The notes beneath the pieces were generated by a model. That model was not told the DNA's origin and searched no databases. It saw nothing but the letters and a program-made list of their open reading frames with translations. Position numbers and translations under genes: made by a program. DNA of 64,000 nt. It comes from Bacteroidales bacterium. GTDB lineage: Bacteria > Bacteroidota > Bacteroidia > Bacteroidales > UBA932. Of the stretch, positions 38,720 through 57,138 are shown piece by piece (position 1 is the first letter of the stretch; every line of letters begins with the position of its first letter). The stretch lies in the NCBI GenBank assembly GCA_017437125.1, contig JAFSBV010000021.1, positions 1-64,000 on the forward strand, read 5' to 3'.

Positions 38720-41700
38720 ATGAAACAATCAATTAAGTGTCTTATTGCTGTTTTTGCAGCAATGCTTATGAGCGTAGCTGCCTTCGCGCAGGTGACTACA
38801 TCAGCTCTGGGTGGACGCGTTGTTGACGTAAACGGTGAACCTGTTGTTGGTGCTGCAGTGATTGCTACTCACACACCTTCAGGAACTGTTTATCCTGTCA
38901 TCACAAACGAGTCAGGTCGTTATACCATGAACGGTATGCGTGCCGGTGGCCCTTACACAGTAGAAATCTCATGCTTGGGTTTCCAGACTGTAACTTTCAC
39001 AGATCTTACCCTTCAGCTTGCTGAGACTTTCTCGTTGGATGCGACTCTCAATGAGGATGCTGAAATGCTTAGCGAGGCAATGGTGATCGGAGCAGCAGCT
39101 TCAAAGTTCTCTGCTCAGAAGATGGGTTCTGCAACCAACATCTCAAGCAAAGAAATCACTTCTCTTCCTACAGTAAGCAGAAGCATCACAGACGTTACAA
39201 GACTTTCACCATACGGAGGTAACGGCATGAGCTTCGCAGGAGCTGACGGACGTACTGCCAACTTCACTGTCGATGGAGCAAACTTCAACAACAACTTCGG
39301 TCTTTCAGACAATCTTCCTGGTGGCGGAAGCCCTATTTCAATCGATGCTATCGAGGAAATGCAGGTGGTTATCTCTCCATATGACGTACGTCAGACAAAC
39401 TTCATCGGTGGTGGTGTGAACGCCATCACAAAGTCAGGTACAAACACATTGAAGGGATCTGCATATGTATATCACCGCAACGAGAACATGCGTGGTAACA
39501 TGGCTGCTGGAAAGGAAGTTTCAGGTGCACGTGACAAGGATCGCAACACTACTTACGGTTTCACTCTCGGTGGTCCTATCATCAAGAACAAGCTCTTCTT
39601 CTTCGTGAACGCAGAGTACTCTACAATCCCTACAGTAGTAAACAGATGGCGTGGTTCTGTTGACGGAGTCGAGAACGCTGACGCAAATATCTCACGTACA
39701 ACCCTCGCAGACCTCGAGAAGGTTTCGAACTTCGTGAAGGAGAAGTACGGATATGATACAGGTTCATGGACTGACTTCCCTGCAACAGAGAGCAACATGA
39801 AGCTCCTCGCACGTATCGACTGGAACATCAATGACAACCACAAGCTTGCTGTAAGATACAACTACACTCTCAACCAGGCTTGGAACTCTACAAACGCTTC
39901 TTCAATGGACGGTGGTCCACGTGCAGCGTTCGGACGTTTCTCACAGTACGGTATGTCATATGCAAACTCGCTCTATTCGATGGACAACCTCGTGAGCACA
40001 GTTTCACTCGATCTCAACAGCCGTCTTAGCGACAACCTTTCAAACCAGTTCCTTGCAACATTCTCAAAGCTCGACGATATGCGTGGCACAAACTCAACTG
40101 ACATGCCGTTCGTTGACATCCGTAAGGATGACGGAAGCTCTGTTCTTCCATACATCGCACTCGGATACGAGCTCTTCACTTGGAACAACGGTGTTCACAA
40201 CACCCATATCAGCATCAAGGATGACCTTACATATTATGCAGGTGATCACAAGTTCACTGCAGGTCTGAACTACGAGTATCAGATGGCTGACAACTCATAC
40301 ATGAGAAACGGTACAGGTTATTATCGTTACAAGAGCCTTGATGACTTCCTTACAGGAGCTGCTCCTGAGGTAGTATGTCTCACTTACGGTTATGACGGTG
40401 AGGCAAACCCTGCAGCACGTGTAAGATTCCACAAGGCCGGTGTATATGCTCAGGACGAGTGGAACGCAACTGAGGACTTCAAGCTTACAGCAGGTCTCCG
40501 TCTTGATGGTCTCTTCTTTGACAATCAGGACCTTATGACTAACAAGGCTATCTATGAGCTCGAGTACATCGTTGATGGTCAGAAGCGTCATATCGACACT
40601 GGCAAGTGGCCTACATCTGCAATCACAGTTTCTCCACGAGTAGGTTTCTCTTGGGACGTACTTGGTGACAACTCACTCAAGTTCCGTGGTGGTACAGGTC
40701 TCTTCTCAGGCCGTCTCCCTCTCGTATTCTTCACCAACATGCCTACAAACTCAGGTATGGTTCAGTACCAGGCAAAGCTTAACGGTACAGGTAACAACGG
40801 TGGTGTGAAGACTGACATGAGCCAGTTCGCAGGCGGTCTCCTCATGCGCGAGGAACTCCTCAACAAGCTTATCTCAATGGGATATCCTAATACTATTTCT
40901 CCAGAGGACGGTACGGTTCCTGCAGAAATTTCAGCAGTTGATCCTAAGTTCAAGATGCCACAGGTATGGAAGACTTCATTCGCTATCGACTACAACTTCC
41001 CTACTGCATTCCCATTCTCTATCAGCGCTGAGGGTATCTACAACAAGACAGTTAACGGCGTCATCATCCGTGACTGGAGCGTGAAGAGCACAGATGGCTT
41101 CACAAGACTCAACGGTGTTGACAACCGTCCTCTCTATCAGGACTACCATCAGACTGCTCCTGACGGATCTAACCTCCCTGCTGCATATGTTCTCGAGAAC
41201 ACTAACCAGGGTTACGGTTACTCAGGTACATTCACTGTGAACATGCGTCCTGTCGAGGGTCTTTCACTCATGGCTGCATATACTCATACAGTATCTAAGG
41301 AGCTTACAGGTATGCCAGGTTCAAATGCTTCTTCAGTATTGAACTACATGGGTACAATCTATGGTCCTAACGATCCAGGTCTCCACAACTCACAGTATGT
41401 TACTCCTGACCGTGTAGTTGCTTCAGCTACTCACAGCGACAGAAGCGGCAACCACTTCAGCTTCATCTACGAGGCATGGAGAGGCGGTTATAACTACACT
41501 TACATGACTGCAAACGATATGAACGGTGACGGTTATAACTATGACCTCATCTATATCCCTACAGATGAGCAGGTTGCTAACAACGAGTTCAGATTCGTGT
41601 CAGCTGACGATGCACAGCGTTTCATGGACTATGTTCACGCTGACAAGTATCTCAGCAAGAACCAGGGCAAGTATGCTGAGTCTTACAGCGTTTACTCTCC

Positions 41701-42016
41701 TTGGACTCACAGACTCGATTTCAGCTACAAGCATGATTTCAAGGTTAAGGCCGGCAAGTCAACTAACACTCTCCAGCTCAGCCTCGATATCAAGAATATT
41801 CTTAACCTCTTCAACTCTAACTGGGGCGTGTCTAAGTATATGAACCCTGCTCTCGGTGAGGGACGTATCCTTAAGTATGAGGGATATGACAAGGACGGTT
41901 ATGCAACATTCTCTACTCCAGCAGCTGTGAATCCTTCAACAGAGGTTTGGAATCCTTCAATCGGAATCGGCCAGTGCTGGTATGCTTCAGTTGGTATCAA
42001 ATATATGTTTAACTAA
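38720..42016 (+). CDS. TonB-dependent receptor, Oar-like (CarboxypepD_reg N-terminus)
   Basis: 1098 residues. Signal peptide (to about SVAAFAQ, residue 24), then a carboxypeptidase-regulatory-like beta domain (VVDVNGEPVVGAAVIATH ... SCLGFQTVTF, ~30-105), a plug domain with SISIDAIEEMQVVISPYDVRQ and FIGGGVNAITKSGTN, and a 22-strand barrel ending YASVGIKYMFN. Oar-type receptors carry large substrates or moor surface structures. First gene of the nucleic-acid-linked region; the OB-fold lipoprotein follows 18 bases later, like a SusC-SusD type pair without SusD. Codon bias suggests high expression. Substrate inferred only from context. Confidence 0.92.
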   Translation: MKQSIKCLIAVFAAMLMSVAAFAQVTTSALGGRVVDVNGEPVVGAAVIATHTPSGTVYPVITNESGRYTMNGMRAGGPYTVEISCLGFQTVTFTDLTLQLAETFSLDATLNEDAEMLSEAMVIGAAASKFSAQKMGSATNISSKEITSLPTVSRSITDVTRLSPYGGNGMSFAGADGRTANFTVDGANFNNNFGLSDNLPGGGSPISIDAIEEMQVVISPYDVRQTNFIGGGVNAITKSGTNTLKGSAYVYHRNENMRGNMAAGKEVSGARDKDRNTTYGFTLGGPIIKNKLFFFVNAEYSTIPTVVNRWRGSVDGVENADANISRTTLADLEKVSNFVKEKYGYDTGSWTDFPATESNMKLLARIDWNINDNHKLAVRYNYTLNQAWNSTNASSMDGGPRAAFGRFSQYGMSYANSLYSMDNLVSTVSLDLNSRLSDNLSNQFLATFSKLDDMRGTNSTDMPFVDIRKDDGSSVLPYIALGYELFTWNNGVHNTHISIKDDLTYYAGDHKFTAGLNYEYQMADNSYMRNGTGYYRYKSLDDFLTGAAPEVVCLTYGYDGEANPAARVRFHKAGVYAQDEWNATEDFKLTAGLRLDGLFFDNQDLMTNKAIYELEYIVDGQKRHIDTGKWPTSAITVSPRVGFSWDVLGDNSLKFRGGTGLFSGRLPLVFFTNMPTNSGMVQYQAKLNGTGNNGGVKTDMSQFAGGLLMREELLNKLISMGYPNTISPEDGTVPAEISAVDPKFKMPQVWKTSFAIDYNFPTAFPFSISAEGIYNKTVNGVIIRDWSVKSTDGFTRLNGVDNRPLYQDYHQTAPDGSNLPAAYVLENTNQGYGYSGTFTVNMRPVEGLSLMAAYTHTVSKELTGMPGSNASSVLNYMGTIYGPNDPGLHNSQYVTPDRVVASATHSDRSGNHFSFIYEAWRGGYNYTYMTANDMNGDGYNYDLIYIPTDEQVANNEFRFVSADDAQRFMDYVHADKYLSKNQGKYAESYSVYSPWTHRLDFSYKHDFKVKAGKSTNTLQLSLDIKNILNLFNSNWGVSKYMNPALGEGRILKYEGYDKDGYATFSTPAAVNPSTEVWNPSIGIGQCWYASVGIKYMFN

Positions 42017-42034
42017 TTTATTATCAGGAATATC

Positions 42035-43528
42035 ATGAAACTTAGAAATATTTTCACAGCTCTTGCAGCCGTAGCGGTACTCGCTTTCGCGGGTTGCCAG
42101 GAGAAGGAGAGATTCCTTGATGAAGTACAGGTTTCTCAGTCTATGATCGCTATTCCTGTTGAAGGCGGTCAGACTCAGATCACTGTAAATGCTGAAACCG
42201 ACTGGGCTATTGAAGGCGCTCCTGAGTGGCTTACAGTATCTCCAGCTTCAGGCTCAAGAGGAGAGGCTAAGGTTACTTTCTCTGCTGAGGCTACAAAGTC
42301 AACAAACGAGGCTGTCCTTTATCTCAATTGCGGTGAGGTTTCTCAGATGCTCACAGTAGTCCAGATGGCCGCTAAGGTAGAGGCACCTCTTACAGACTGC
42401 GCTACAGTTCTCGCAGAGAACAACGTAGGCAAGGTTTACAAGTGCAAGGGTACAATCACAGACCTTACAAACTATGACAAGTACGGTTGCTTCTACATCA
42501 ACGACGGTACTGCAACAGTATATGTATATGGTTCAATGAACCCAGCACAGTTCAGCCCTGAGGTTGGTGACATCATCACATTCGAGGGTCCTTGGACTTC
42601 ATACGGCAACTTCGACGACGTGACTATCCTCTCTCTCGAGAAGTCTCTCATCAAGGTTGAGAAGGTTATCCCTGCAGCTCCGCTTTCACTTGACGGTGGC
42701 ACAGTTACAGTAGCCCTCACAGTAAAGGGTGACGACCTCACAATCGAGATCCCTGAGGATGCACAGGCATGGCTTACAGCTGGTGAGCCAGAGGCTCTCG
42801 GAAACATGACAACAGTAGAGCTTACAGCTACTGCAAACGAGGGTGGTGCACGTACAACTACAGTTACATTCAAGACTACAAGCAAGGGCAAGGAGTATGT
42901 TGCAATGGCTGACATCGAGCAGCTCGGAGCTATCGCTGAGGTTTCAGTGGCAGACTTCCTCGCAGCTGAGGTCGGTACAGCACTCTTCAAGCTTACAGGT
43001 GTTGTGAAGAATGTAAAGAGCGACGTTTACGGTAACTTCGACCTCGTTGACGCAACAGGTTCAGTATATGTTTACGGTCTTACTGCAACTCAGGTGGCAA
43101 GCAACGACAAGTCATTCGGTTCACTCGGAATCAAGGAAGGTGATGTTGTTACAATCATCGGTACAAGAGCAGAGTACAAGGGTACAGCACAGGTAGGTGG
43201 TCCTGCTTACTATGTAAGCCACGTCGGCACTACTGAGTCAACTGTAGCTGACTTCCTTGCACAGCCTACAGGCAGTGACTGGTACAAGCTTACAGGTACT
43301 GTAACAAACATCGCAAGCGACGTTTACGGTAACTTCGACCTCGTTGACGAGACTGGTTCTGTATATGTTTATGGTCTTACAGCAGCTCCGGTAGCAAAGA
43401 ATGACAAGTCATTCGCTTCTCTCGGACTCGTTGAAGGCGACAAGATCGTCATCGTAGGAACAAGAGCAGAGTACAAGGGTACAGCTCAGGTAGGCGGTCC
43501 TGCTTACTTCATCAAGAAGGCAGAGTAA
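42035..43528 (+). CDS. Surface lipoprotein with BACON and OB-fold domains
   Basis: 497 residues. Lipobox AFAGC (Cys20) followed by QEKE. A BACON beta-domain (~30-112: GGQTQITVNAETDWAIEG ... WLTVSPASG), then an OB-like domain (~125-210: VYKCKGTITDLTN, GCFYINDGTATVYVYG), a second BACON-like domain (~215-300), and two near-identical OB-like domains (each ~97 residues, offset exactly 99 codons) of the nucleic-acid-binding type. Probably the substrate-capturing partner of the upstream TonB receptor on the cell surface; nucleic-acid binding is inferred from the OB fold. Confidence 0.75.
   Translation: MKLRNIFTALAAVAVLAFAGCQEKERFLDEVQVSQSMIAIPVEGGQTQITVNAETDWAIEGAPEWLTVSPASGSRGEAKVTFSAEATKSTNEAVLYLNCGEVSQMLTVVQMAAKVEAPLTDCATVLAENNVGKVYKCKGTITDLTNYDKYGCFYINDGTATVYVYGSMNPAQFSPEVGDIITFEGPWTSYGNFDDVTILSLEKSLIKVEKVIPAAPLSLDGGTVTVALTVKGDDLTIEIPEDAQAWLTAGEPEALGNMTTVELTATANEGGARTTTVTFKTTSKGKEYVAMADIEQLGAIAEVSVADFLAAEVGTALFKLTGVVKNVKSDVYGNFDLVDATGSVYVYGLTATQVASNDKSFGSLGIKEGDVVTIIGTRAEYKGTAQVGGPAYYVSHVGTTESTVADFLAQPTGSDWYKLTGTVTNIASDVYGNFDLVDETGSVYVYGLTAAPVAKNDKSFASLGLVEGDKIVIVGTRAEYKGTAQVGGPAYFIKKAE
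42955..43519 (+). repeat. Direct repeat of OB-domain coding DNA
   Basis: Two copies offset 297 bases; segments such as 43022-43080 against 43319-43377, and 43167-43211 against 43464-43508, are nearly identical at the DNA level, so the duplication is recent or maintained by recombination. Confidence 0.8.
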
Positions 43529-43550
43529 TCATACTCTATATACATTCTCT

Positions 43551-43584
43551 AAGGCTGTCACCGCAAGGTGACGGCCTTTTTTTG
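43551..43584 (+). terminator. Terminator after the first OB lipoprotein
   Basis: AAGGCTGTCACC/GGTGACGGCCTT (43551-43562, 43567-43578) with a GCAA loop, one G-T pair, and a T run. Confidence 0.9.
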
Positions 43585-43620
43585 CCTCTGCAACGTATTG
43601 GATATCTGTATTTTTTCCTT

Positions 43621-43628
43621 TATTTTTG
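43621..43628 (+). promoter_or_regulatory. -7 box for the BACON/OB-nuclease operon
   Basis: TATTTTTG, 55 bases before ATG 43684; TTG at 43598-43600 is 20 bases upstream. Confidence 0.6.
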
Positions 43629-43683
43629 TAAATTCAAGAAAAATGTCAATTAAGGAAAAAGCTAATATTTATAAAAAAGTAAC

Positions 43684-45828
43684 ATGAAAATCAGAAATCT
43701 TTTTTTAGGAATCATCGCTTCCTTGGCGGTATTTGCAGCCTGCCAGGAAGAGGAAGTGAATCTCGGTACTCCGAACATCGTGCTAAGCGAAACCGAGATC
43801 TGTTTTGAGTCAGCTGGCGGAGAACAGGCACTCACTGTTACTGCAAGCCGCGACTGGATGGTAGAGACAGATGCGGACTGGGTGGTGGTATCACCAGAGT
43901 CAGGTCTTGCATCGGCTGATGCCCAGACAGTTACTGTTACGGTTCTTGAAAACACAGGTCTTGACCGTTCTGTAGATGTGAAGTTCACAATCGGTATGAA
44001 GAGCAAGTATCTGACTGTAAATCAGGCAGGTCCTAAGGGCTCGGCAGAGAACCTCATCATTTATTACAACGACTATGACAAGGTGGTTGCAGAAAAGACA
44101 TACGGCTCAGGTTCAAGCTGGCCATACCTCGATCAGTTCGACGGCTGGCAGAACCAGACAGGAACAGGTGCTGCAAACGTGACATATGCATACAGCGGTA
44201 TGTCTGCACGTGCAAACTCTACATCCAACAGCAACTATTCCGATTATGAGGGTTCCGGAAACAACAACATGTTCTTCGGAAAGAGTGCATATCTTGCTAC
44301 AGGCAACATCGCCCTCGGCGGTGCGACAGACCTCGTACTCACATTCGGTTCAGAGAAGTATTCACAGGACGGAGACAGCATCTTCAAGAATTCTGAATTC
44401 CATGTATATCTCAGCAACGACGGCAGTAAGTGGGTTGAGCTTGACTACACGTTTGCCGGAACAGAAGGCGGAAGATGGAACCTTGCGACAGCGAACTTCT
44501 CGGTTCCTGCAGGTACGGAGAACCTCTCGGTATGCGTAAAGGTTGACGTAGCCAGCGTTTATCGTATGGATGACCTCAAGCTCGAGATTTCAGAGACTGC
44601 AGGTACTGCTGTTGACTTCTCGAAGGGAGTGGAGATGGATTTCACAGCCGGCGGCAGCACAGGTGGCGGTTCAACCCCTGCTGCTCCTGAATCAAAGGGC
44701 AAGAAGACCGTGGCCGAGTTCATCGCGGCAGCCGACAAGTCAAACTATTATGAACTTACCGGTAAGGTATCAGGCTTCAATGCAACATATTGCAGCTTCG
44801 ATCTTACAGACGATTCAGGAAAGATTTATGTATATTCAGTTCTCGATGAGAGCAAGGCAGAGTGGACAAGCAAGATCTCAAACGGTGGCACAATCACCAT
44901 CTATGCTAAGTATGAGTACTATGAGCCGAAGGACCAGCATGAGGTAGTTGACGCATATATCGTAAGCTTCAAGGCAGACGGTGGAAATACCGGCGGTGGA
45001 AACGAGAATGAGGGCAAGCCTTCAAGTCTCACGAAGGTTACAGTGGCAGAATTCCTCGATGCTCCTGAAAGCAGCGACACTTGGTACGAGCTTACAGGTG
45101 AGATCACATCCATCGCAGAAGGAAACGCATACGGAAACATCTACATCAACGACGGTACCGGTGAAGTTTACATTTATGGCCTTACAAACGGCTGGGTAGG
45201 CTACAATGACAAGTCATTCGACAGCATCGGCCTCAAGGTCGGCGACACGGTTACCCTCGGATCGCTCAGAGGTTCATATAACGGACAGCCTCAGGGTGGC
45301 GGAAGCAAGATGCCTGCATATTATATCAGCCATGTCAAGGGCGAAGGCGGAGATCAGGGCGGCGACGATCCTACTCCTCCGTCAGGAGATGCCGGAGAGT
45401 TTGATCCGACCATTTCATGGGATCTCGGTGAAAAGGCTTATGATGCCACTTCAGGAACGACTGCACAGACTGGTACTGTCAACGGAGTCGAGGTAAGCAA
45501 CATGCTCAAGCTCGGAACAAGTAAACTTACTGGAGATGCTACTCTCCATGTTCCTGCCGGAACAAAGAAGCTCGGCTTCTACTGTGTGGCATGGAAGGGC
45601 AAGAAGGCGCAGGTAAGGTTCTCAGTGAACGGAACAGAGATCGCAACCATCGAGCCGGCTGCAAATGCAGGAGCTTCAGGCAATCCTCCATACACTATCA
45701 CAGTTTCAGACAGTGACTATTTCGAGGTGGAAATGCCTTCGGCAGACGCTGCAGATGTCAAGGTCGAGACACTTGATCCTGCAAACGGACGTGTCATCTT
45801 CATCGGCCTCAAGGCTCTCACAGAGTAA
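43684..45828 (+). CDS. Surface lipoprotein with BACON, jelly-roll and OB-fold domains
   Basis: 714 residues. Lipobox VFAAC (Cys20). BACON domain (~30-118: GGEQALTVTASRDWMVE ... VVVSPESG), a beta-sandwich module (~125-310: YYNDYDKVVAEKTYG ... VYRMDDLKLEI), two OB-like domains separated by Gly-rich linkers (~345-435 YYELTGKVSGFNATYCSFDL; ~455-550 WYELTGEITSIAEGNAYGN), and a C-terminal beta-sandwich. Similar design to the previous lipoprotein. 3 bases before the nuclease gene. Inferred to bind extracellular nucleic acid and present it to the nuclease. Confidence 0.72.
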   Translation: MKIRNLFLGIIASLAVFAACQEEEVNLGTPNIVLSETEICFESAGGEQALTVTASRDWMVETDADWVVVSPESGLASADAQTVTVTVLENTGLDRSVDVKFTIGMKSKYLTVNQAGPKGSAENLIIYYNDYDKVVAEKTYGSGSSWPYLDQFDGWQNQTGTGAANVTYAYSGMSARANSTSNSNYSDYEGSGNNNMFFGKSAYLATGNIALGGATDLVLTFGSEKYSQDGDSIFKNSEFHVYLSNDGSKWVELDYTFAGTEGGRWNLATANFSVPAGTENLSVCVKVDVASVYRMDDLKLEISETAGTAVDFSKGVEMDFTAGGSTGGGSTPAAPESKGKKTVAEFIAAADKSNYYELTGKVSGFNATYCSFDLTDDSGKIYVYSVLDESKAEWTSKISNGGTITIYAKYEYYEPKDQHEVVDAYIVSFKADGGNTGGGNENEGKPSSLTKVTVAEFLDAPESSDTWYELTGEITSIAEGNAYGNIYINDGTGEVYIYGLTNGWVGYNDKSFDSIGLKVGDTVTLGSLRGSYNGQPQGGGSKMPAYYISHVKGEGGDQGGDDPTPPSGDAGEFDPTISWDLGEKAYDATSGTTAQTGTVNGVEVSNMLKLGTSKLTGDATLHVPAGTKKLGFYCVAWKGKKAQVRFSVNGTEIATIEPAANAGASGNPPYTITVSDSDYFEVEMPSADAADVKVETLDPANGRVIFIGLKALTE

Positions 45829-45831
45829 TCC

Positions 45832-47016
45832 ATGACGATAAGCAAGGTAATAAATAAGGTTGCAGTGGTCTTGACGGCCATCTGCACCTTATTTGTTTCT
45901 TCATGTGACGAGCAGACTGATGACGGACTGAGCGTTACGCTGAAGTCAGGCAATGTTACGGCTGAGGCCGGACAGATGTTTGTCAGTGTCACCAGCAGTA
46001 CATCTTGGACATTATATATGACAGCCGAGGACGGAGAGGATGGAACAGACTGGGCCAGTCTGAACGTAACTTCCGGAACCGGAAACAAAAGCAACGTCAT
46101 ATTGACATACGAGGCGAATGATGGCGAGGACTCGCGTTCTATCTCGATAGTGGTCGATAACGGCAGAAACTGGGCGAAATGCATCTTTACCCAGCCTGGA
46201 CTCGGCCAGCAGGGAGGAGAGGAACCGCTTCCTCAGCCGGAACTCGATCTGACGAAGACAGGGTGGCTGGAACTTCCGGCAATGGACGATCCAGACCTCG
46301 GCTACTACAGCCACAGCTTCGAGATGAACGGTCAGAAGTACCGCAACTACTCTTTCGGATGGAGCCAGACCGACCTTGTGGCTCACTGGGTCGCATATCC
46401 TCTTTGTTCAATATATACGAATAAAAGGGTTAACCGTACCGATGAATGGGCATATGACCCGCTTCTCGGACCGGAATTCTCGTCCGCTCCTTTCGGCGGC
46501 TACGGGGGATCATACGCAAGAGGCCATCAGGTACCTTCGGCAGACCGTCTGTGCTGCCGTGAAGCCAATGTGCAGACCTTCTATGGAACGAACATGACTC
46601 CGCAGAACAACGGACATAACGGGGGCATATGGCAGGATATCGAAAGCTATGTCCGCAATATTGCCAACAAGTCAGATACGACATACGTGGTTTCCGGATG
46701 CATGGTGAAGGACAGTCAGAATTTCACACAAGACTCAGACGGCAAGAAGATGACCGTGCCTACGGCATATTTCAAGGCAGTCCTCCGTTACACCAAGTCA
46801 TCGACCTTGAGCACATGGGCTGCAATGGCGTTCTATACGGAGCACAAGGATTATCCTGACAATACGCCTTTCAAGACCATCGCCATGTCTGTCGATGAAC
46901 TTGAGGATGTCACCGGCCTTGACTTCTTTGTCAATCTTCCTGAAAAACTCGGTGAGAAACGCGCATCGGAACTTGAGGCGGAAGACCCTGTGACCAATTC
47001 CGTATGGGGACTGTAA
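45832..47016 (+). CDS. DNA/RNA non-specific endonuclease (NUC1 family), lipoprotein
   Basis: 394 residues. Lipobox VSSC (Cys25), BACON-type domain (~33-122), then the betabetaalpha-metal nuclease. Catalytic motif ARGHQVPSADR around His232 (the common DRGH Asp is Ala here), and metal-site residues in YGTNMTPQNNGHNGGIWQDIE (Asn254, Asn259/260). Degrades single- and double-stranded DNA and RNA into oligonucleotides in the known family. Surface exposure is inferred from the lipid anchor. In one transcript with the OB lipoprotein before and the phosphatase-type nuclease after. Confidence 0.88.
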   Translation: MTISKVINKVAVVLTAICTLFVSSCDEQTDDGLSVTLKSGNVTAEAGQMFVSVTSSTSWTLYMTAEDGEDGTDWASLNVTSGTGNKSNVILTYEANDGEDSRSISIVVDNGRNWAKCIFTQPGLGQQGGEEPLPQPELDLTKTGWLELPAMDDPDLGYYSHSFEMNGQKYRNYSFGWSQTDLVAHWVAYPLCSIYTNKRVNRTDEWAYDPLLGPEFSSAPFGGYGGSYARGHQVPSADRLCCREANVQTFYGTNMTPQNNGHNGGIWQDIESYVRNIANKSDTTYVVSGCMVKDSQNFTQDSDGKKMTVPTAYFKAVLRYTKSSTLSTWAAMAFYTEHKDYPDNTPFKTIAMSVDELEDVTGLDFFVNLPEKLGEKRASELEAEDPVTNSVWGL

Positions 47017-47033
47017 AAAGATAAGACACCAAT

Positions 47034-48113
47034 ATGAAAAAGATACTCTACATACTGATCGCACTGACGCTATTCAGCACAGGTGCATCTGCTCAGAAGA
47101 ATGGTGAAAAGAACCATGTCATAGGATTCTACAATCTCGAGAATCTCTTTGACACATACGACGATCCTGCGAAGAACGACGAGGAATTCCTCCCGGAAGG
47201 AAAAAACAAATGGACTGAGGCGAAATATCAGAAGAAGCTTCAGAACATGGCCAAGGTCATAAAGTCCATGAAGGAGGAGAACGGAGCATGGCATGCCCTT
47301 CTCGGAGTGTCTGAAATAGAGAACAGGCTTGTGCTCGAGGATCTCGTCATGGAGCCTCAGATAGCGGAAGCGAATTATCAGATCGTCCATTATGACGGTC
47401 CGGACAGACGAGGCGTGGATGTGGCTCTCCTCTATAATCCTAAGGTATTCACCTTCCTCGACAGCGAATCTATTCCTTTCACATTCGAGGGCAGCTCGAT
47501 CGACTGGATCCAGTCTCAGGAGGAAAGGGACTATTTCAGGACACGTGATATCCTCATGGTTCACGGAACTATTGACGGTGAACATTTTGCGATATATGTG
47601 GCCCATCTTCCATCACGCTCCGGCGGCAAGAAGGGGGGCAACCAGCTTCGCGACAGAGGAGGCGAGATAATGTATAATCATGCGATGGAGATGCAGAAGA
47701 AATATCCGGGCATAAAGATAGTCTGCATGGGTGATATGAACGACAACCCGACAGACACGAGCATGGCTGAATACCTTCACGGACTCGAGAACAAGGCTGA
47801 CGTGACCGACACTGATTTCTTCTCGCCTTTCCTGTCGATGCTCAAGGCAGGATTCGGCTCCCTCGCATATCAGGGAGTATGGAGCATATATGACCTTCTT
47901 CTGGTCAACAATGCCCTTGCAAACCCTCAGGAAGGCACATTCGGACTCCGTCAGCTCCATAAGAAGGGATTTTACGGACGCATTTATAACCCTAAGTTCC
48001 TGACCAACCAGAAAGGACAGTACAAGGGTACACCGTTCAGAACCTTCTCCAACGGAGCTTTCATCGGAGGCTACAGCGACCATTATCCGACTTATATCGT
48101 AATAACCAAATAG
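47034..48113 (+). CDS. Secreted endonuclease/exonuclease/phosphatase-family enzyme
   Basis: 359 residues, signal peptide (MKKILYILIALTLFSTGASA), 17 bases after the NUC1 gene. All EEP catalytic motifs are visible: FYNLENLFD, GVSEIENR, VALLYNPKVF, VAHLPSRSGGK, MGDMNDNPTD, and the final GGYSDHYPTYI (Asp-His). No lipobox, so likely periplasmic or secreted. Could cut the oligonucleotides made by NUC1 or strip phosphate; related EEP genes occur beside TonB receptors in many Bacteroidota. Confidence 0.85.
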   Translation: MKKILYILIALTLFSTGASAQKNGEKNHVIGFYNLENLFDTYDDPAKNDEEFLPEGKNKWTEAKYQKKLQNMAKVIKSMKEENGAWHALLGVSEIENRLVLEDLVMEPQIAEANYQIVHYDGPDRRGVDVALLYNPKVFTFLDSESIPFTFEGSSIDWIQSQEERDYFRTRDILMVHGTIDGEHFAIYVAHLPSRSGGKKGGNQLRDRGGEIMYNHAMEMQKKYPGIKIVCMGDMNDNPTDTSMAEYLHGLENKADVTDTDFFSPFLSMLKAGFGSLAYQGVWSIYDLLLVNNALANPQEGTFGLRQLHKKGFYGRIYNPKFLTNQKGQYKGTPFRTFSNGAFIGGYSDHYPTYIVITK

Positions 48114-48119
48114 GAAAGG

Positions 48120-48263
48120 AGATTTCTCCACTCGCTTCGCTCGGTCGAAATGACAGTGTTGTTAAGCCGGTTGAAATGACAGTGTTGATAAGCCGGTCGA
48201 AATGACAGGATGACATGTTTAAGTGTCATTTCGAGCGAGGCCGCAGGCCGAGTCGAGAAATCT
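48120..48263. repeat. Composite inverted repeat with 26-bp tandem units
   Basis: Outer ends agatttctc (48120-48128) and gagaaatct (48255-48263) face each other, each next to a 'cgaaatgaca/tgtcatttcg' block with GC-rich dyads. Between them gaaatgacagtgttg-type units of 26 bases repeat at 48147-48172 and 48173-48198, with a partial third. Lies directly upstream of the second TonB receptor. Confidence 0.8.
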
Positions 48264-48279
48264 GCATAATGACAACAAA

Positions 48280-51240
48280 ATGATAAAGAAAGCATTACTA
48301 TTCATCACGGCACTGCTTTGCTCATCCGCTCTTTTCGCCCAGAGCAACGACTGGGGAGGAGTGAAGGGTACGGTCGTGAACCGTGCCGGCAGAGCACCTA
48401 TTGCTGAAGCGGCATTGACCATCTCCCAGAATGGCGAGACCGTAGCTTCCGCAACATCTGATGCTGAAGGTAAGTTCCTCATCGAGAACCTTCCGAACGG
48501 AATGTATGATATGACGATTAAGGCTCCGGGTTTTCTGGATGCCAATGTCAATGTGACGGTCGAGGGTTATGTAAAGGATCTGATCTTTGTGGGAATGGTC
48601 ATCGAACAGGTAGTCATGGATGTCGATGATTCCAATTTCGCTGAATTCGATATGGATGATTCGGGATTCGAGGATGCCCCTTCCATTCTTTTCGACAGCA
48701 ATGACCCGTTCACGGACATCGCCAGCTTCGGCTTCAGCAACATCCGCTTCAAGAACAGAGGTTATACGAATGAATCTCAGGACGTATATCTCAGCGGCAT
48801 CAGAATGAACGACGCCATCACGGGATATTCTCCGTTTTCACTCTGGAGCGGTCTCAACGAGGCTATGAGAAGCAAGGAAAGCACTATAGGAAACGAGGTC
48901 TCCGACTATGGCTATGGCGGTTACAACGGAGTTACGAACATCCATGCGATGCCTTCAAGCGTACGTACGGGATGGAGGTTCAGCGCCCTCACCAACAGTG
49001 CCCTCTACCGCCTCCGCCTCATGGCCACATATGCATCAGGCGAGCTTGACAACGGATGGTCATACGCATTCAACGTATCTGCCCGTCTCGGTGGAAACGA
49101 TTGGGTGAAAGGAGTTTACTACCGTAATTTCGCATATTACTTCGGAGTTGAGAAGAAATTCGGAGACATCCACAGGATCGGTCTCGTGACTTTCGCCGCT
49201 CCGGGCCAGCGCGGTGCACAGAATGCATCGACCCAGGAGGTATATGACCTGATCGGTGACAACATGTACAACAGCAATTGGGGATATCAGAACGGCAGAG
49301 TGCGCAATGCGCGTGTCCGCAAGACATTCGAGCCGATAACCATCCTCAAATATACCGCGACTCCTTCAGACGACCTTGAGGCTTCTGCTACAGTGCTCTG
49401 GCGTACAGGAAAGAACGGATATACCGCGATGGACTGGTATGATGCGGCTGATCCGCGTCCGGACTATTACCGCAACCTTCCAAGCTATTACTGGATGGAG
49501 GACGAGGATTACGACAGGCAGAATTTCGAGAAATACGCATGGGCGAAGGATGCATGGGTAAACGACTATCCTCAATACACCCATCTTGATTGGGACCGTC
49601 TCTATAACGTGAACTGGAACAACTACGATGCAGACGGACTCCGCCGCTCTAAGTATGCGGTCGAGGAACGTCGCGTGGATCAGAACGATATCAATCTCAA
49701 TGCAAGCCTGAAATGGACTGCAGGCAAGATATTCACACTTACAGGAGGCATCAATTACAAGTGGAACCGTACAGAGTACTACAAGAAGATGGACGATCTT
49801 CTCGGAGGTGACTACTATATCAATATCGACCAGTTCGCGGAACGTGATTTCGCATCCTCGCCTGCTATGGTTCAGAACGACCTCGACTATTACCTGGCAC
49901 ATGGTGAAGCACAGTCGCTCCAGCAGGGAGACAAATACGGCTATGACTATTATGCACATGTCCGCAAGGCTAATGCATGGGCTAACGGATCTCTCGACCT
50001 CGGTGCTTTCAAGGCAGATCTTGCGGCACAGATAGGATATGAGAAGTTCTGGAGGGAAGGACTTGTCAGGAAGGGTCTTTTCGCAGGACTTGATGACAAT
50101 GGAAACGAGTTCATCATCGACGGAAAGAATCTCACTTCATATGAAATGGTGAACGGAGTTAAGACTCCGATCACCTCGAAGGGCAATTCTGCAGTCTCTG
50201 ACTTCCTTACATATTCGGCAAAGCTCGGTCTTCAATATCATATCGACGGAGGCCACAGAATATATGCAAATGCAGCTTATTACAATGATGCCCCTACATT
50301 TGCCCAGTCATTCATCTCGCCTCGTACACGAAACTCTCTTGTGCCGAATCTCGAGACGATGAAGACCACTTCTGCAGACATCAACTATCAGTTCAGCAAC
50401 AACGGATACAATTTCCGCATCACCGGTTTCTGGACCACCATCAAGGACCAGACGGACATGATGAGCTTCTATGATGACTCGCAGAATTCGTTCACGAACT
50501 TCGCCATGAGCGGCATCGATCAGCGTCATATGGGCGTGGAGTTCGGATTCAAGATCCCTGTATTTGTCCAGGGTCTTTCAGTAGAGGGAGCCTTCAGCTG
50601 GGGTGAATATATATATACATCGACTCCGCGCATGACTCAGACAGTTGACAACAGTGCCGAGGTGATATTCGACAACCAGGCTGTTCCTTACTGGGCAAGC
50701 AGTCCGGTATTCAGAAAGACCGTAATGGACGGCGAAACTGTATATGAGACAGATCTCAACGGCGATCCTGTGGTCGAGAGCTGGCAGAAGCATTACGTTC
50801 CTTCAACTCCACAGCTTGCAGCCGATCTCGGACTCAACTACAGGACGAATTCATATTGGTTCTTCGAACTTCACGGTCAGTATTTCGCGAACTCGTACCT
50901 CGACATGAACCCTCTCTACAGGACGGATATGGCTACAGCCGGTCCTGACGGAATCGTTACACCTGTGGAGATCGAATACATGACGGCTCAGGAGAGGTTC
51001 GACCCTGTATTCCTTCTCAACGCGAGCATCGGAAAGTCGTGGTATATCGACCGCAAGTACAACTTCGGATTCTCCCTCAACCTTCAGAACATGCTGAATA
51101 ACAGGATGGTAAAGACCGGAGGTTACGAGCAGACCCGTCTGATCGACAGCAAGAGCATGGAGAGATACTACCGGTTTGATTCGAAGTATTTCTATATGCA
51201 GGGCTTTAATTATATGTTGAACCTCTATTTCAGATTCTAA
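48280..51240 (+). CDS. TonB-dependent receptor (CarboxypepD_reg type)
   Basis: 986 residues from ATG 48280; the frame extends 19 codons upstream into the repeat and is rejected there because MIKKALLFITALLCSSALFAQ is a normal signal peptide. CarboxypepD_reg domain (~30-105: VVNRAGRAPIAEAALTIS), a plug region (NIRFKNRGYTNESQDVYLSGIRMND), and a long beta-barrel ending MLNLYFRF, with terminal Phe. Followed by the DUF5689 lipoprotein, an arrangement typical of nutrient-uptake pairs. Substrate unknown; nucleic acid or its products are suggested by neighbours. Confidence 0.9.
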   Translation: MIKKALLFITALLCSSALFAQSNDWGGVKGTVVNRAGRAPIAEAALTISQNGETVASATSDAEGKFLIENLPNGMYDMTIKAPGFLDANVNVTVEGYVKDLIFVGMVIEQVVMDVDDSNFAEFDMDDSGFEDAPSILFDSNDPFTDIASFGFSNIRFKNRGYTNESQDVYLSGIRMNDAITGYSPFSLWSGLNEAMRSKESTIGNEVSDYGYGGYNGVTNIHAMPSSVRTGWRFSALTNSALYRLRLMATYASGELDNGWSYAFNVSARLGGNDWVKGVYYRNFAYYFGVEKKFGDIHRIGLVTFAAPGQRGAQNASTQEVYDLIGDNMYNSNWGYQNGRVRNARVRKTFEPITILKYTATPSDDLEASATVLWRTGKNGYTAMDWYDAADPRPDYYRNLPSYYWMEDEDYDRQNFEKYAWAKDAWVNDYPQYTHLDWDRLYNVNWNNYDADGLRRSKYAVEERRVDQNDINLNASLKWTAGKIFTLTGGINYKWNRTEYYKKMDDLLGGDYYINIDQFAERDFASSPAMVQNDLDYYLAHGEAQSLQQGDKYGYDYYAHVRKANAWANGSLDLGAFKADLAAQIGYEKFWREGLVRKGLFAGLDDNGNEFIIDGKNLTSYEMVNGVKTPITSKGNSAVSDFLTYSAKLGLQYHIDGGHRIYANAAYYNDAPTFAQSFISPRTRNSLVPNLETMKTTSADINYQFSNNGYNFRITGFWTTIKDQTDMMSFYDDSQNSFTNFAMSGIDQRHMGVEFGFKIPVFVQGLSVEGAFSWGEYIYTSTPRMTQTVDNSAEVIFDNQAVPYWASSPVFRKTVMDGETVYETDLNGDPVVESWQKHYVPSTPQLAADLGLNYRTNSYWFFELHGQYFANSYLDMNPLYRTDMATAGPDGIVTPVEIEYMTAQERFDPVFLLNASIGKSWYIDRKYNFGFSLNLQNMLNNRMVKTGGYEQTRLIDSKSMERYYRFDSKYFYMQGFNYMLNLYFRF

Positions 51241-51347
51241 AGATTCCTCGTCTCGGCTTCCAGCCTTGCTCGGAATGACAGTATGACTCAAGAAGAATGA
51301 AGTATGATTGGTGTCATTTCGACCGAACGAAGTGAGTGGAGAAATCT
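51241..51347. repeat. Second composite inverted repeat copy
   Basis: Left part agattcctcg...cggaatgacag (51241-51281) and right part gtgtcatttcga...gagaaatct (51311-51347), the same head-to-head design as 48120-48263 but without the tandem units. Placed just before the DUF5689 lipoprotein gene. Confidence 0.75.
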
Positions 51348-51362
51348 ATGACAATTAAAGTT

Positions 51363-52397
51363 ATGAAGAAAATATACATATTACTGGCTGCAATGGTCCT
51401 CTTCGCCGGATGTGAGGAGTTCCAGCCTGTCTTCACAGGCAAATATCCTGACCCTCAGGAGCAGTACATATATACGGATGCTGATTTCGGAAAATTTACA
51501 TCCATAGCCGATCTCAAGGCAATGTATGCCGAGAACGGCAACAAGCCTTATACTGTCGAGAAGAATTGTGTCATCAAAGGTCAGGTGACTACCTCGGATC
51601 AGGTAGGAAACCTTTACAAGAGCCTTTATATCCAGGACGAGACAGCCGGCATCGAAGTCAAGATCGGCAAGAACGGCCTTTACAACGAGTACAAGCTCGG
51701 CCAGTGGATATATATTGACTGTTCAGGCCTGACAGTAGGTGACTACAACGGAATGATCAACATCGGCTATTCCGACCCGACAGGAGAATACGAGACGGGC
51801 TATCTCGAGCATGCCTACATCATCAACGAGCATGTATTCAAAGGTGAATACGGTGATCCGGTAAAGCCGGTGGTGGTGAAGGAGGCCGACCTGCATAAGG
51901 ACGTTAATCTCGGCCGTCTCGTGACCATAGAGAATCTGAAGTATGATGACCATATCTTCATCCTCGCATATGTCGATCCTAACGGAAACAGGAAGGATTA
52001 CACCAACAACGGAATATTCATCGACGAGGAAGGCCCGGACAACTACGGCGTGACCACATGGGCATGTTCCGAAAGCAAATGGAAGGAATATCTCAATGCC
52101 GGCAATTTTGACAGCGTAGAGGCTGCCGGAACCACAGTCGGAGCCCTCAGAAAGGGCAAGGGAATCGGTTCCATGGCATATTCGGTGAGCCAGTACTTCA
52201 AGATGGGAAAGACCGATGTACAGGTGCGTACCAGCGGATATGCCCGTTTTGCAGACACCGAGATCCCTCAGGAGGTGCTTGACGGAAAGGCCACCGTATC
52301 ATTTACCGGTATCCTTACAGAGTACAAGGGCGCAGCCCAGTTCACCCTCATCGATCTTGACGGTGTCAGAAAGACCGACGGCACAAACTGGTATTGA
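51363..52397 (+). CDS. DUF5689 lipoprotein
   Basis: 344 residues from ATG 51363 (an upstream in-frame ATG at 51336 falls in the repeat). Lipobox VLFAGC (Cys16). TSIADLKAMYA, YTVEKNCVIKGQVTTSD, and SLYIQDETAGIEVKIGKNGLY are the DUF5689 pattern, an OB-like fold; a second such half follows (EVLDGKATVSFTGILTEYKGAAQFTLIDL). DUF5689 proteins commonly accompany TonB receptors and EEP nucleases in Bacteroidota. Probably the surface binding partner of the preceding receptor. Confidence 0.8.
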   Translation: MKKIYILLAAMVLFAGCEEFQPVFTGKYPDPQEQYIYTDADFGKFTSIADLKAMYAENGNKPYTVEKNCVIKGQVTTSDQVGNLYKSLYIQDETAGIEVKIGKNGLYNEYKLGQWIYIDCSGLTVGDYNGMINIGYSDPTGEYETGYLEHAYIINEHVFKGEYGDPVKPVVVKEADLHKDVNLGRLVTIENLKYDDHIFILAYVDPNGNRKDYTNNGIFIDEEGPDNYGVTTWACSESKWKEYLNAGNFDSVEAAGTTVGALRKGKGIGSMAYSVSQYFKMGKTDVQVRTSGYARFADTEIPQEVLDGKATVSFTGILTEYKGAAQFTLIDLDGVRKTDGTNWY

Positions 52398-52414
52398 TCC
52401 TCCCGATCTCTCCC

Positions 52415-52480
52415 GATCCCTCCTGAGCTCCTTCTGTCATCCTGAGCTCCTCCTGTCATCCTGAGCGCAGCGAAGGATCT
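52415..52480. repeat. Tandem and dispersed repeat cluster
   Basis: Three tandem-like tcctgagctcctyctg units (about 52421-52456) lead into a full copy tgtcatcctgagcg...cgaaggatct (52454-52480). Directly upstream of the M3 peptidase gene. Confidence 0.75.
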
Positions 52481-52505
52481 ATATAAGAATCAAACAATCC
52501 GAAAT

Positions 52506-54512
52506 ATGAAAAAAGTATTATTTGCACTTTCAATCATCATGGCAGCAGTTTCCTGCAACAGAGTGAACCCGTTCCTCGGAGAATGGGAAACACCTTACGG
52601 TATTCCTGATTTCAACCAGATTCAGGAGAAACACTATATCCCTGCAATTGAATACGGCATCCGCCAGCAGCAGGGTGAAATCGACGCGATCATCGCAAAT
52701 CCGGACGCTCCTACATTCGAAAACGTAGTTGAGGCATATGAGCGTTCAGGTGCGGTTCTTGACCGTGTTTCGATGGTTCTCTTCAATGTTTCCGAGTCAG
52801 ATGCGACAGAGTCTCTCCAGAAGATCGTAGAGCAGGCTCTTCCTCTCATTTCCGTTCATAGCGACAATATCTTCATGAATCCGTACTTCTTCAAGAAGGT
52901 GGAGGCTCTTTATAACGATATCGAGAATCTCGGTCTCAACCAGGAGCAGAAGATGGCTCTCAAGAAGCTCTACAACTCATTCGTGAACAATGGTATCGCC
53001 CTCAGCGAGGCCGATCAGGCACGCATGCGAGAGATCAACCTCGAGCTTTCTTCGCTTTCAAATACATTCGGAAACAACCTTCTTGCAGAGAACAATGCAT
53101 TTGCTGAGGAATTCGGCATTTCAGTTTCAGAATATGGCGGAGCGATGGCTGCAACAGAAGACCGTGCCCTCCGTGAGAAGATGTTCAAGGCATATGCCTC
53201 ACGTGGCAACAACGGCAACGAATATGACAACAAGGACCTGATTGTCAAGACTATGGCACTCCGTATCGAGAAGGCGAAGCTCCTCGGATACGATACACCG
53301 GCAGATATGATCCTTCATGACAAGATGGCCGGCAGTGCTGAGACAGTGGATGAATTCCTTTCAAGCCTCATGGCCCCTGCCATCGCTAAGGCAAAGGAAG
53401 AGATCGCTGACATGCAGGCTGTTATGGACGAGGATATCAAGGCAGGCCTTCTTCCTGAGGGCAGCGTGATCGAGCCATGGGACTGGGCATATTACACTGA
53501 AAAGGTGCGTAAGGCTAAATATGCACTCGACGAGGAGCAGACAAAGCCATATTTCCAGATGGAGAACGTGCGTCAGGGCGTATTCGACCTCACCACAAAG
53601 CTTTGGGGACTTCAGTACGAGAAGCTCGAGGATATTCCTGTATATCATCCTGAGGTTGAGGGATTCAAGGTGACAGATGCAGACGGCTCGCTCATCGGTG
53701 TGATCCTCACAGACTATTTCCCACGCAGCACAAAGAGAGGCGGTGCATGGATGACCAACTTCGTGAATCAGGAGGTTCTTGACGGAGAGGATATACGTCC
53801 TGTAATCGTGAACGTAGGAAACTTTGCCAAGCCGGCTGACGGCAAGCCTTCACTCCTTACCCTCGACAATGTAGAGACTCTTTTCCATGAGTTCGGACAT
53901 GCACTTCACGGTCTTCTCAGTCAGTGTACATACAAGAGCGTGAGCGGAACATCCGTAGCACGTGACTTTGTGGAGCTTCCTTCACAGATCATGGAGAACT
54001 GGGCATTCCAGAAGGAGGTTCTTGCTGATTATGCACGTCATTATGAGACCGGTGAGATCATTCCTGACGCACTCGTGGAGAAGATCGAAGCTGCCGGCAA
54101 CTTCAATCAGGGCTTCATGACTACAGAGCTCGCAGCTGCTTCAATCCTTGACCTCAAGTGGCATATGCTTGATTCTGTAGAGGGTCTCGATCCTATGGCA
54201 TTCGAGGCGGAGGCATGTAAGGAAATGGGTCTCATCGACGAGATCATCCCTCGTTACCGCAGCACATATTTCGCCCACATCTTCAGCGGCGGATACAGTG
54301 CAGGATATTACAGCTACCTTTGGGCAGAGGTACTTGACAAGGATGCATTCGAGCTCTTCCTCGAGAAGGGAATCTTCGACAAGGAGACAGCAATGTCATT
54401 CCGCCGCAATGTCCTCGAGAAGGGTGGCAGCGATGAGCCGATGGATCTCTACCGCCGCTTCCGTGGCGCAGATCCTGATGCAGGTGCCCTCCTCCGTGGT
54501 CGCGGACTTTAA
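52506..54512 (+). CDS. dcp: M3-family metallopeptidase (peptidyl-dipeptidase Dcp-like), lipoprotein
   Basis: 668 residues. Lipobox AAVSC (Cys17), unlike cytosolic Dcp, so membrane-anchored. Zinc site LFHEFGHALHG (about residue 461) with a downstream Glu; M3 motifs YGIPDFNQIQEKHYIPAIEYG and FSGGYSAGYYSYLWAEVLDKD. Removes dipeptides from oligopeptides. Last in the 38.7-54.5 kb cluster: it could digest protein bound to nucleic acid, or be unrelated. Codon bias is strong. Confidence 0.92.
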   Translation: MKKVLFALSIIMAAVSCNRVNPFLGEWETPYGIPDFNQIQEKHYIPAIEYGIRQQQGEIDAIIANPDAPTFENVVEAYERSGAVLDRVSMVLFNVSESDATESLQKIVEQALPLISVHSDNIFMNPYFFKKVEALYNDIENLGLNQEQKMALKKLYNSFVNNGIALSEADQARMREINLELSSLSNTFGNNLLAENNAFAEEFGISVSEYGGAMAATEDRALREKMFKAYASRGNNGNEYDNKDLIVKTMALRIEKAKLLGYDTPADMILHDKMAGSAETVDEFLSSLMAPAIAKAKEEIADMQAVMDEDIKAGLLPEGSVIEPWDWAYYTEKVRKAKYALDEEQTKPYFQMENVRQGVFDLTTKLWGLQYEKLEDIPVYHPEVEGFKVTDADGSLIGVILTDYFPRSTKRGGAWMTNFVNQEVLDGEDIRPVIVNVGNFAKPADGKPSLLTLDNVETLFHEFGHALHGLLSQCTYKSVSGTSVARDFVELPSQIMENWAFQKEVLADYARHYETGEIIPDALVEKIEAAGNFNQGFMTTELAAASILDLKWHMLDSVEGLDPMAFEAEACKEMGLIDEIIPRYRSTYFAHIFSGGYSAGYYSYLWAEVLDKDAFELFLEKGIFDKETAMSFRRNVLEKGGSDEPMDLYRRFRGADPDAGALLRGRGL

Positions 54513-56936: not shown

Positions 56937-56961
56937 AACTATACCGATTATCCGTATCTTA

Positions 56962-56969
56962 CAAAGATA
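56962..56969 (-). promoter_or_regulatory. -7 box for GH92
   Basis: TATCTTTG on the minus strand, 25 bases before ATG 56936. Confidence 0.65.
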
Positions 56970-57098
56970 GCAATACTTTCCTAAATCCCGTCCAAGCATT
57001 CCTGCTGAAGCAGCAAAGCCCAGCTGTGAGCGAGCGAAGCATATTCCTATGATTCTGCAGAGAGAGCCTTGCACCTGTAGCATTTTTGCTATGAAAAC

Positions 57099-57138
57099 GC
57101 GCGAGATACCCTTCAAAATCGGGGTACCTCGCGCACTT
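57099..57138 (-). terminator. Terminator after gpmI
   Basis: GCGCGAGATACCC (57099-57111) faces GGGTACCTCGCGC (57122-57134), one mismatch. Followed on the minus strand by GTTTTCAT. Related in sequence to the pgk terminator (19105). Confidence 0.7.

Follow-up and report, generated by a model that had tools for sequence, protein, structure and literature searches.

Within a 64,000-nucleotide stretch of a Bacteroidales genome (assembly GCA_017437125.1, contig JAFSBV010000021.1; hereafter the window), eight genes at positions 38720-54512, all reading in the + direction, compose a locus that we interpret, at a probability of roughly 0.6, as a TonB-powered system for the capture, cutting and import of DNA across the outer membrane. 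At its core stand a TonB-dependent transporter, TonB2, and a DUF5689 lipoprotein, most likely a variant of the DNA uptake pair of Riemerella to which surface nucleases have been added. This interpretation is carried by the gene content, the kept gene order, the homology to Riemerella, the TonB2 fold and the nuclease motifs. It is further supported by apparent DUF5689-NUC1 fusions, by OB repeats resembling RPA32 and by a ComEC stub in the same genome, which comprises 2.8 Mb in 99 contigs and is about 91% complete. The features of the locus are the following:

38720..42016, + strand: TonB1, Oar-like outer-membrane receptor of 1098 amino acids (aa), module 1 (Pfam OMP_b-brl_4, 1.1e-52)
42035..43528, + strand: OB1 lipoprotein, BACON and three OB-like repeats, module 1 (Pfam; lipobox CQEKE)
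43551-43578, + strand: terminator-like hairpin between the modules (consensus scan)
43684..45828, + strand: OB2 lipoprotein, BACON and two OB-like repeats, first gene of module 2 (Pfam; lipobox)
45832..47016, + strand: NUC1, lipid-anchored DNA/RNA non-specific endonuclease (Endonuclease_NS PF01223, 2.2e-39)
47034..48113, + strand: EEP, enzyme of the endonuclease/exonuclease/phosphatase fold with a signal peptide and without a lipobox (Exo_endo_phos_3 PF19580, 6.9e-94)
48280..51240, + strand: TonB2, TonB-dependent transporter of 986 aa from the ATG at 48280 (Pfam CarboxypepD_reg and barrel)
51336..52397, + strand: DUF5689 lipoprotein, third OB-like lipoprotein and partner of TonB2 (PF18942, 1.4e-47)
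52506..54512, + strand: M3 family peptidase lipoprotein, optional passenger (Pfam, 1.3e-131; lipobox)

In the system that we envisage, OB2, NUC1 and DUF5689 would be lipoproteins of the cell surface, where the OB domains would hold nucleic acid and NUC1 would cut it. DUF5689 would pass the nucleic acid on to TonB2, which would bring DNA, as a strand or a fragment, into the periplasm, and the secreted EEP would process it there. DNA as the substrate in this organism, the order of the steps, the surface exposure and the location of EEP are what we infer from the genes and their relatives.

A core shared with the transformation genes of Riemerella

A search of 218 genomes sampled across the phylum gave 32 full-length TonB2 matches (E 3e-176 or better, the window's own included), and the next barrels followed only at 3e-58. 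TonB2 thus occurs in 31 of the 217 other genomes, with DUF5689 directly 3' of it, within 1.5 kb, in 30 of these 31. When 20 of the 31 loci were examined, a divergent EEP gene stood right 5' of TonB2 in 17 and DUF5689 3' of it in 19. In the family of Riemerella, which belongs to the same class as the window genome according to kinship labels, TonB2 was found in 147 of 148 genomes; the 20 loci examined there carried DUF5689 3' in every case and the divergent EEP 5' in 19. One genus of this family contributed 56 named TonB2 loci, including those of R. anatipestifer CCUG25054 and R. columbina, with a divergent EEP 5' in 43 of the 50 loci with room for it and DUF5689 or an OB-type open reading frame (ORF) 3' in 50 of 53. 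No NUC1 was detected with the NUC1 profile in the 40 loci from the phylum and from the Riemerella family, each of about 20 kb. Among viral contigs, 90 stretches fitted a pattern, none of them holding a TonB2 relative. TonB2 and DUF5689 form an old pair. Three loci (L143, L144, L146) have, near the main pair, another TonB2-like barrel that is shorter (850-880 aa, E 1e-66 to 6e-89).

Three of the 20 loci examined in the Riemerella family (L152, L155, L157) have an upstream ORF with the sequence GPESSGKT, which we take to be the RecA motif, and eight ORFs separate it from TonB2; in the other 17 loci no such ORF lay in range. ComEC is the fifth ORF after recA in L152 and occupies the matching place in R. 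anatipestifer CCUG25054. The published locus tags of R. anatipestifer are RS04870 for RecA, RS04895 for ComEC, and RS04915 and RS04920 (PMC8459023; this and the other papers are cited from the parts of their text that were available). The gene spacing matches these tags; from gene order and the named loci, TonB2-DUF5689 is the counterpart of RA0C_RS04915-RS04920, and by the same gene count the divergent EEP of R. anatipestifer is RS04910. Markerless deletions of RS04915 and RS04920 abolish natural transformation of R. anatipestifer (Huang et al. 2021, PMC8459023). DNA-binding and transport roles of the two proteins were offered by these authors as speculation, and homologues were termed widespread in the phylum, yet RS04915 was reported only in Flavobacteriaceae (PMC8459023). 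In the available text of the same paper RS04910 is mentioned as an upstream gene with unchanged transcription, and we found no description there of an RS04910 mutant. Mutants in tonBA and tonBB of R. anatipestifer also show a lowered transformation frequency (PMC8383284).

The window TonB2 and the R. anatipestifer barrel are 28% identical over the whole length (935 aa, E 4e-104). TonB1, serving as a negative control for this comparison, had no similarity to the Riemerella barrel (best E 1.5). The window DUF5689 protein shares 33% identity over 169 residues with its R. anatipestifer counterpart (E 3e-17), and the EEP enzymes share 29% (E 3e-61). DUF5017 did not match the window DUF5689 protein at E 0.1; in Riemerella-type loci it gave sub-cut-off matches in L152 and R. 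columbina and none in R. anatipestifer CCUG25054 at E 0.001.

An AlphaFold (AF2) model of TonB2, built on 34 aligned sequences (mean pLDDT 78.9, pTM 0.76), comprises a carboxypeptidase-like domain, a plug region and a barrel of 22 strands, counted by hand from the DSSP line; the Pfam Plug model has no match in TonB2. Compared with solved structures, the 50 best matches shown were all TonB-type transporters, with query TM-scores of about 0.4-0.5 and with Fiu (1.7e-30), PqqU, YncD, FecA, FhuA and OprC among them, so that TonB2 as modelled has the TonB-transporter fold. The AF2 model of DUF5689 (pLDDT 77, pTM 0.71) runs twice through the OB-like strand order b-b-b-a-b-b and looks like two OB folds. 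DUF5689 has no PDB relative by sequence, and neither its profile nor those of EEP and TonB2 retrieved anything useful from the PDB. The DUF5689 model (PF18942) also matches, above cut-off, in the Bacillus subtilis control genome, presumably in an OB-fold extracellular nuclease.

The nuclease operon and its conservation

The gaps within the locus are 18 bp (TonB1-OB1), 155 bp (OB1-OB2), 3 bp (OB2-NUC1), 17 bp (NUC1-EEP), 166 bp (EEP to the TonB2 ATG), 95 bp (TonB2-DUF5689) and 108 bp (DUF5689-M3). Those of 3 and 17 bp support a single OB2-NUC1-EEP transcript. An earlier note on this DNA, made from the sequence alone, had already placed NUC1 and EEP on one transcript with an OB lipoprotein, and its gene coordinates and domain labels were borne out by the gene list and by a Pfam scan of nine window proteins, the GH92 neighbour included. 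Our own lipobox pattern, used to call the lipid cysteine, found one in OB1, OB2, NUC1, DUF5689 and M3 and none in EEP, which agrees with the three OB-like lipoproteins (OB1 and OB2 with BACON, and the one that Pfam names DUF5689), the lipid-anchored NUC1 and the secreted EEP of that note. Its picture of one locus with two TonB receptors and M3 at the end held for the genes and not for their grouping: they likely form two modules, TonB1-OB1 (38720-43528) and OB2-NUC1-EEP-TonB2-DUF5689 (43684-52397), with M3 behind. The hairpin, together with an inexact promoter-like site within 43529-43683 (pattern scan without control), suggests that TonB1-OB1 is a separate unit. Both scans are weak evidence for unit borders: the terminator scan gave 10 sites against 11.5 expected in shuffles, a count not above them, and the exact Bacteroidetes-type promoter pattern is absent from the + strand of the locus.

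We then sampled 119 genomes of the window's family, its own included, with three Pfam models; EEP was found in 112, DUF5689 in 68 and NUC1 in 65. In a tabulation of gene places that omitted weaker rows, 34 of the 65 NUC1 genomes had NUC1 and EEP no more than 2 kb apart and on one strand, versus 0.35 expected (assuming three NUC1 and two EEP genes each), and in all 34 a DUF5689 gene on that strand lay no further than 12 kb away, versus 0.76 expected (assuming four DUF5689 genes each); these expectations are rough, being built on assumed gene numbers. The downstream DUF5689 gene was 3.9-4.6 kb away in all 34. A TonB2 model found a relative in 47 of the 119 genomes, all 34 among them, and it is TonB2 that fills the gap between EEP and DUF5689. 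All 33 relatives' loci were examined gene by gene, in sets of 25 and 8, and the order OB lipoprotein, NUC1, EEP, TonB2, DUF5689 recurred. An OB1/OB2-type gene preceded NUC1-EEP in 24 of the 25, the remaining locus ending at the contig start. Some genes missed by our simple ORF caller were recovered by Pfam (NUC1 in L105 and L240, EEP in L120, DUF5689 in L113), and three loci are truncated at a contig edge (L114, L242, L247).

In a quickly built TonB2 phylogeny (64 rows, LG+G4), whose outgroup did not fall on one side, the 34 NUC1-bearing rows formed one clade of 35 with G101, whose contig ends inside EEP (SH-aLRT 100). Such a topology suggests that NUC1 was probably gained once. DUF5689 and NUC1 apparently form a single ORF in 20 of the 119 family genomes, judged by equal ORF length and place; in the example analysed with Pfam (L096), BACON, DUF5689 and Endonuclease_NS follow one another within 918 aa.

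NUC1 has NucA, the Serratia nuclease and EXOG as PDB relatives and, as a second Pfam match, a weak BACON under cut-off (3.6e-4). In 16 operon NUC1s the R, G and H of the motif never vary, nor do additional N and E columns; the first motif letter is D in 12, A in two, the window among them, and S in two. EEP has N, E, D, H, D-N and D-H residues, presumably catalytic, that do not vary among 29 aligned rows. Two further NUC1-family nucleases and one further EEP gene lie elsewhere in the genome (G000:C53:164411-165016, G000:C62:24767-25399, G000:C99:20630-21502).

OB1 matches BACON (1.8e-16) and the tRNA_anti-codon OB model (PF01336, 1.9e-7), and OB2 matches BACON (7.8e-11) and, under the curated cut-off, OB (4.9e-4). 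A profile of the five OB repeats of both proteins had RPA32 as its top PDB match (E 3.2e-4, the next unrelated entry at 0.097), which we take to be one of the subunits of RPA, a protein that binds single-stranded DNA; the likeness of the profile to DUF5689 was weak (E 1.6e-4, probability 50%). OB1 and OB2 can hence be assigned an OB fold from their profiles. In Bacteroidota, acidic residues after the lipid cysteine mark lipoproteins for surface export. At least two such residues among the following six were counted, with no background control, in 7/7 OB1, 25/36 OB2-type (32 with lipobox), 23/38 NUC1 (32 with lipobox) and 25/39 DUF5689 proteins (33 with lipobox), and in 0/8 M3 proteins. The M3 peptidase was rejected as a part of the system: it stands 3' of DUF5689 in just 7 of the 33 relatives' loci (7/25 and 0/8).

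TonB1-OB1 forms a parallel module whose substrate is probably a related one. An apparent DUF5689-NUC1 fusion gene lies directly 5' of TonB1 in five of the seven such loci examined (L096, L098, L099, L100, L109), several of them near metK, so that in this family each of the two module types is found with nucleases. Other arrangements were also seen. Upstream of the nuclease operon, L127 (1266-5651) and L105 (1204-5529) each encode a giant protein of some 1450 aa in which DUF5689 matches four times. In L234-L237, TonB2 and a divergent EEP (that of L236 missed by the ORF caller and placed by a Pfam search) have small unassigned genes near TonB2 instead of a recognised adjoining DUF5689. Upstream of the window locus, at 33785-36441, a type II restriction enzyme (REase_II, 4.6e-175) adjoins a type II methyltransferase (5.3e-211), and downstream a convergent GH92 gene (54603-57116) adjoins it.

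ComEC and the possible uses of imported DNA

The window genome has one ComEC-domain match, in a gene of 369 aa (L151:1132-2241) with the Competence domain only, and no DUF4131 match; ORFs with DUF4131 reach at least 700 aa in the same family. We classed a ComEC as long, in these draft genomes, if it had at least 600 aa and DUF4131 above cut-off; partial DUF4131 matches under the cut-off were treated as missing, apart from eight put in a middle class. Among the 47 TonB2 genomes, 12 of the 13 lacking NUC1-EEP had a long ComEC, against 4 of the 34 that have it; of the 72 family genomes lacking TonB2, 22 had a long ComEC and 50 a short one or none. The first to branch off in the NUC1 clade is G112 (68% complete, lacking DUF4131), and the next branch holds five rows with long ComEC (G023, G032, G078, G090, G101). 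Because these lie near the base of the clade, NUC1 was probably gained before ComEC shrank. A statistical claim that NUC1 drives ComEC loss was dropped: the tree contains two NUC1 changes, one of them G101, and three ComEC changes, too few for an independent test.

Natural-transformation uptake might operate here too, NUC1 and EEP making ends and a single strand, which ComEC would carry to the cytoplasm. This would be another use of the same importer, its share lying inside the probability given to the importer, and we regard it as possible though the lesser part. In its favour, genes essential for transformation are homologues of the core pair, the genome has a ComEC-domain gene, and 5 of the 35 NUC1-clade rows, near the base, retain a long ComEC. 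Nucleases of the bb-alpha-metal type acting at DNA entry are known from pneumococcus and Moraxella (PMC6384898), so NUC1 alone does not decide between nutrition and transformation. Against this use, long ComEC was not found in 30 of the 34 NUC1-EEP genomes, a surface nuclease would tend to destroy donor genes, and the window ComEC, without DUF4131, falls below the range of 417-872 aa given for strains of known competence (PMC6299819). All in all, we consider nucleotide or phosphate scavenging somewhat likelier than genetic transformation in this organism.

That TonB2 imports nucleotides, phosphodiesters or another small ligand freed by the enzymes, and not DNA, seems to us rather unlikely. It would suit the fold matches of TonB2, which are small-ligand transporters, and phosphate-starved Flavobacterium induces TonB transporters along with extracellular nucleases (PMC8115612). 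However, the homologous pair is needed for transformation, that is, for long DNA crossing the outer membrane.

BACON domains are known from glycan loci, and the locus might be one like a polysaccharide-utilisation locus (PUL), serving a glycan or glycoprotein, with unrelated nucleases as passengers and OB domains that bind sugar or protein. A GH92 gene adjoins the locus, the BACON part of OB1 matches a GH16 entry (E 6.5e-4), and the order of TonB receptor and lipoprotein resembles SusCD; the earlier note was right to call the layout PUL-like, with a lipoprotein in the place of SusD and nucleases in that of glycosidases. Yet Pfam found no SusD domain in the nine window proteins scanned and no carbohydrate-active enzyme in the operon, the convergent GH92 outside being the sole one, with a relative in 1 of 25 loci, several kb off (L130). 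NUC1-EEP is accompanied by TonB2 and DUF5689 in 34 of 34 genomes, and apparent DUF5689-NUC1 fusions occur. We consider a glycan PUL improbable, and with no SusD and no core glycosidase it was rejected as the best reading. A surface DNase that removes biofilm DNA, webs of host DNA or phage DNA, for cleaning or in defence and without import, is less probable still: the nuclease is lipid-anchored and EEP secreted, but this would leave the TonB transporter and DUF5689 partner kept with the nuclease unexplained, and at E 0.001 neither NUC1 nor EEP is matched by a PADLOC model.

Several points weigh against DNA import itself. OB folds bind sugars and proteins as well, EEP enzymes act on many substrates, and the best fold matches of TonB2 are carriers of small ligands. 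An identity of 28% to the Riemerella barrel would leave enough room for a changed substrate, and ARGH instead of DRGH may mean a weakened nuclease in the window NUC1. About one gain underlies the association of NUC1 with short ComEC. The R. anatipestifer pair was shown to be necessary for transformation, not for binding or carrying DNA, and attempts to transform Flavobacterium johnsoniae, which has all the homologues, failed in the conditions used (PMC8459023). For the lowered frequency of the Riemerella tonBB mutant, the authors held iron responsible (PMC8383284). Six strains of known competence have a Competence-only ComEC, the prevailing form in Porphyromonadaceae (PMC6299819), to which one may add that Porphyromonas gingivalis is transformable (PMC11532111); the ComEC stub therefore leaves nutrition versus transformation unsettled.

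Overall, the capture, cleavage and import of nucleic acid put forward in the earlier note gains support from the Riemerella homology, the apparent fusions and the neighbours, whose conservation it had proposed to check and which the 34 genomes keep, although its use as food or phosphate is a supposition. It is tempting, if quite tentative, to go further and suppose that Bacteroidota possess a TonB-driven outer-membrane DNA importer of their own, TonB2-DUF5689 with EEP as its dedicated nuclease, which is old in the class and serves transformation in Riemerella. One family clade would then have recruited a surface nuclease and OB lipoproteins, turning the importer into a DNA-eating utilisome, after which ComEC decayed.

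Known DNA uptake routes are of the pilus and secretion types, and a TonB transporter carrying DNA would differ from them. The conserved three-gene set of EEP, TonB2 and DUF5689 can now be named, and in the locus one can test the idea that uptake machinery was converted to nutrition. Passage of DNA across the outer membrane was called unclear for P. gingivalis (PMC11532111), and the Riemerella uptake model, speculative by its authors' own words, left the strand-cutting nuclease unidentified (PMC8459023); EEP is a candidate for it. Among the titles and abstract openings listed by literature searches, with subscription papers and preprints outside the scope, we found no description of a TonB2-DUF5689-NUC1-EEP locus; DUF5689 is named in one of the papers searched.

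Comparison with known systems

The closest known system is RA0C_RS04915-RS04920 of R. anatipestifer (PMC8459023), where, as in the window, a full-length homologous barrel (28% identity) is followed by a DUF5689 lipoprotein and adjoined by an EEP gene. There, however, EEP is divergent, recA and comEC lie near and no NUC1 was seen, whereas the window pair shares one operon with NUC1 and OB2. The R. anatipestifer partner is also longer and has DUF5017 according to the available text of PMC8459023, while that of the window is short.

SusCD loci and utilisomes likewise consist of a TonB transporter followed by a surface lipoprotein, plus surface enzymes. The window has OB-type lipoproteins and nucleases instead, without SusD or a core glycosidase; it works like a SusCD locus yet is not one. 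Pneumococcal EndA and Moraxella NucM are, like NUC1, bb-alpha-metal nucleases, and act at DNA entry, but they serve other competence systems, and the window NUC1 is a BACON lipoprotein in a TonB operon (PMC6384898). The PusCD phosphate utilisation loci of Flavobacterium also tie TonB-type transport to phosphorus compounds, although with SusD-type partners and phosphatases; the DUF5689-NUC1-EEP core was not seen in the available text on them (PMC8115612). Finally, DNA-degradation loci from marine sediment share with the window clustered extracellular nucleases and nucleic-acid-binding domains, but belong to Ca. Izemoplasmatales and rely on ABC transporters, TonB being unmentioned in the available text (PMC8289736).

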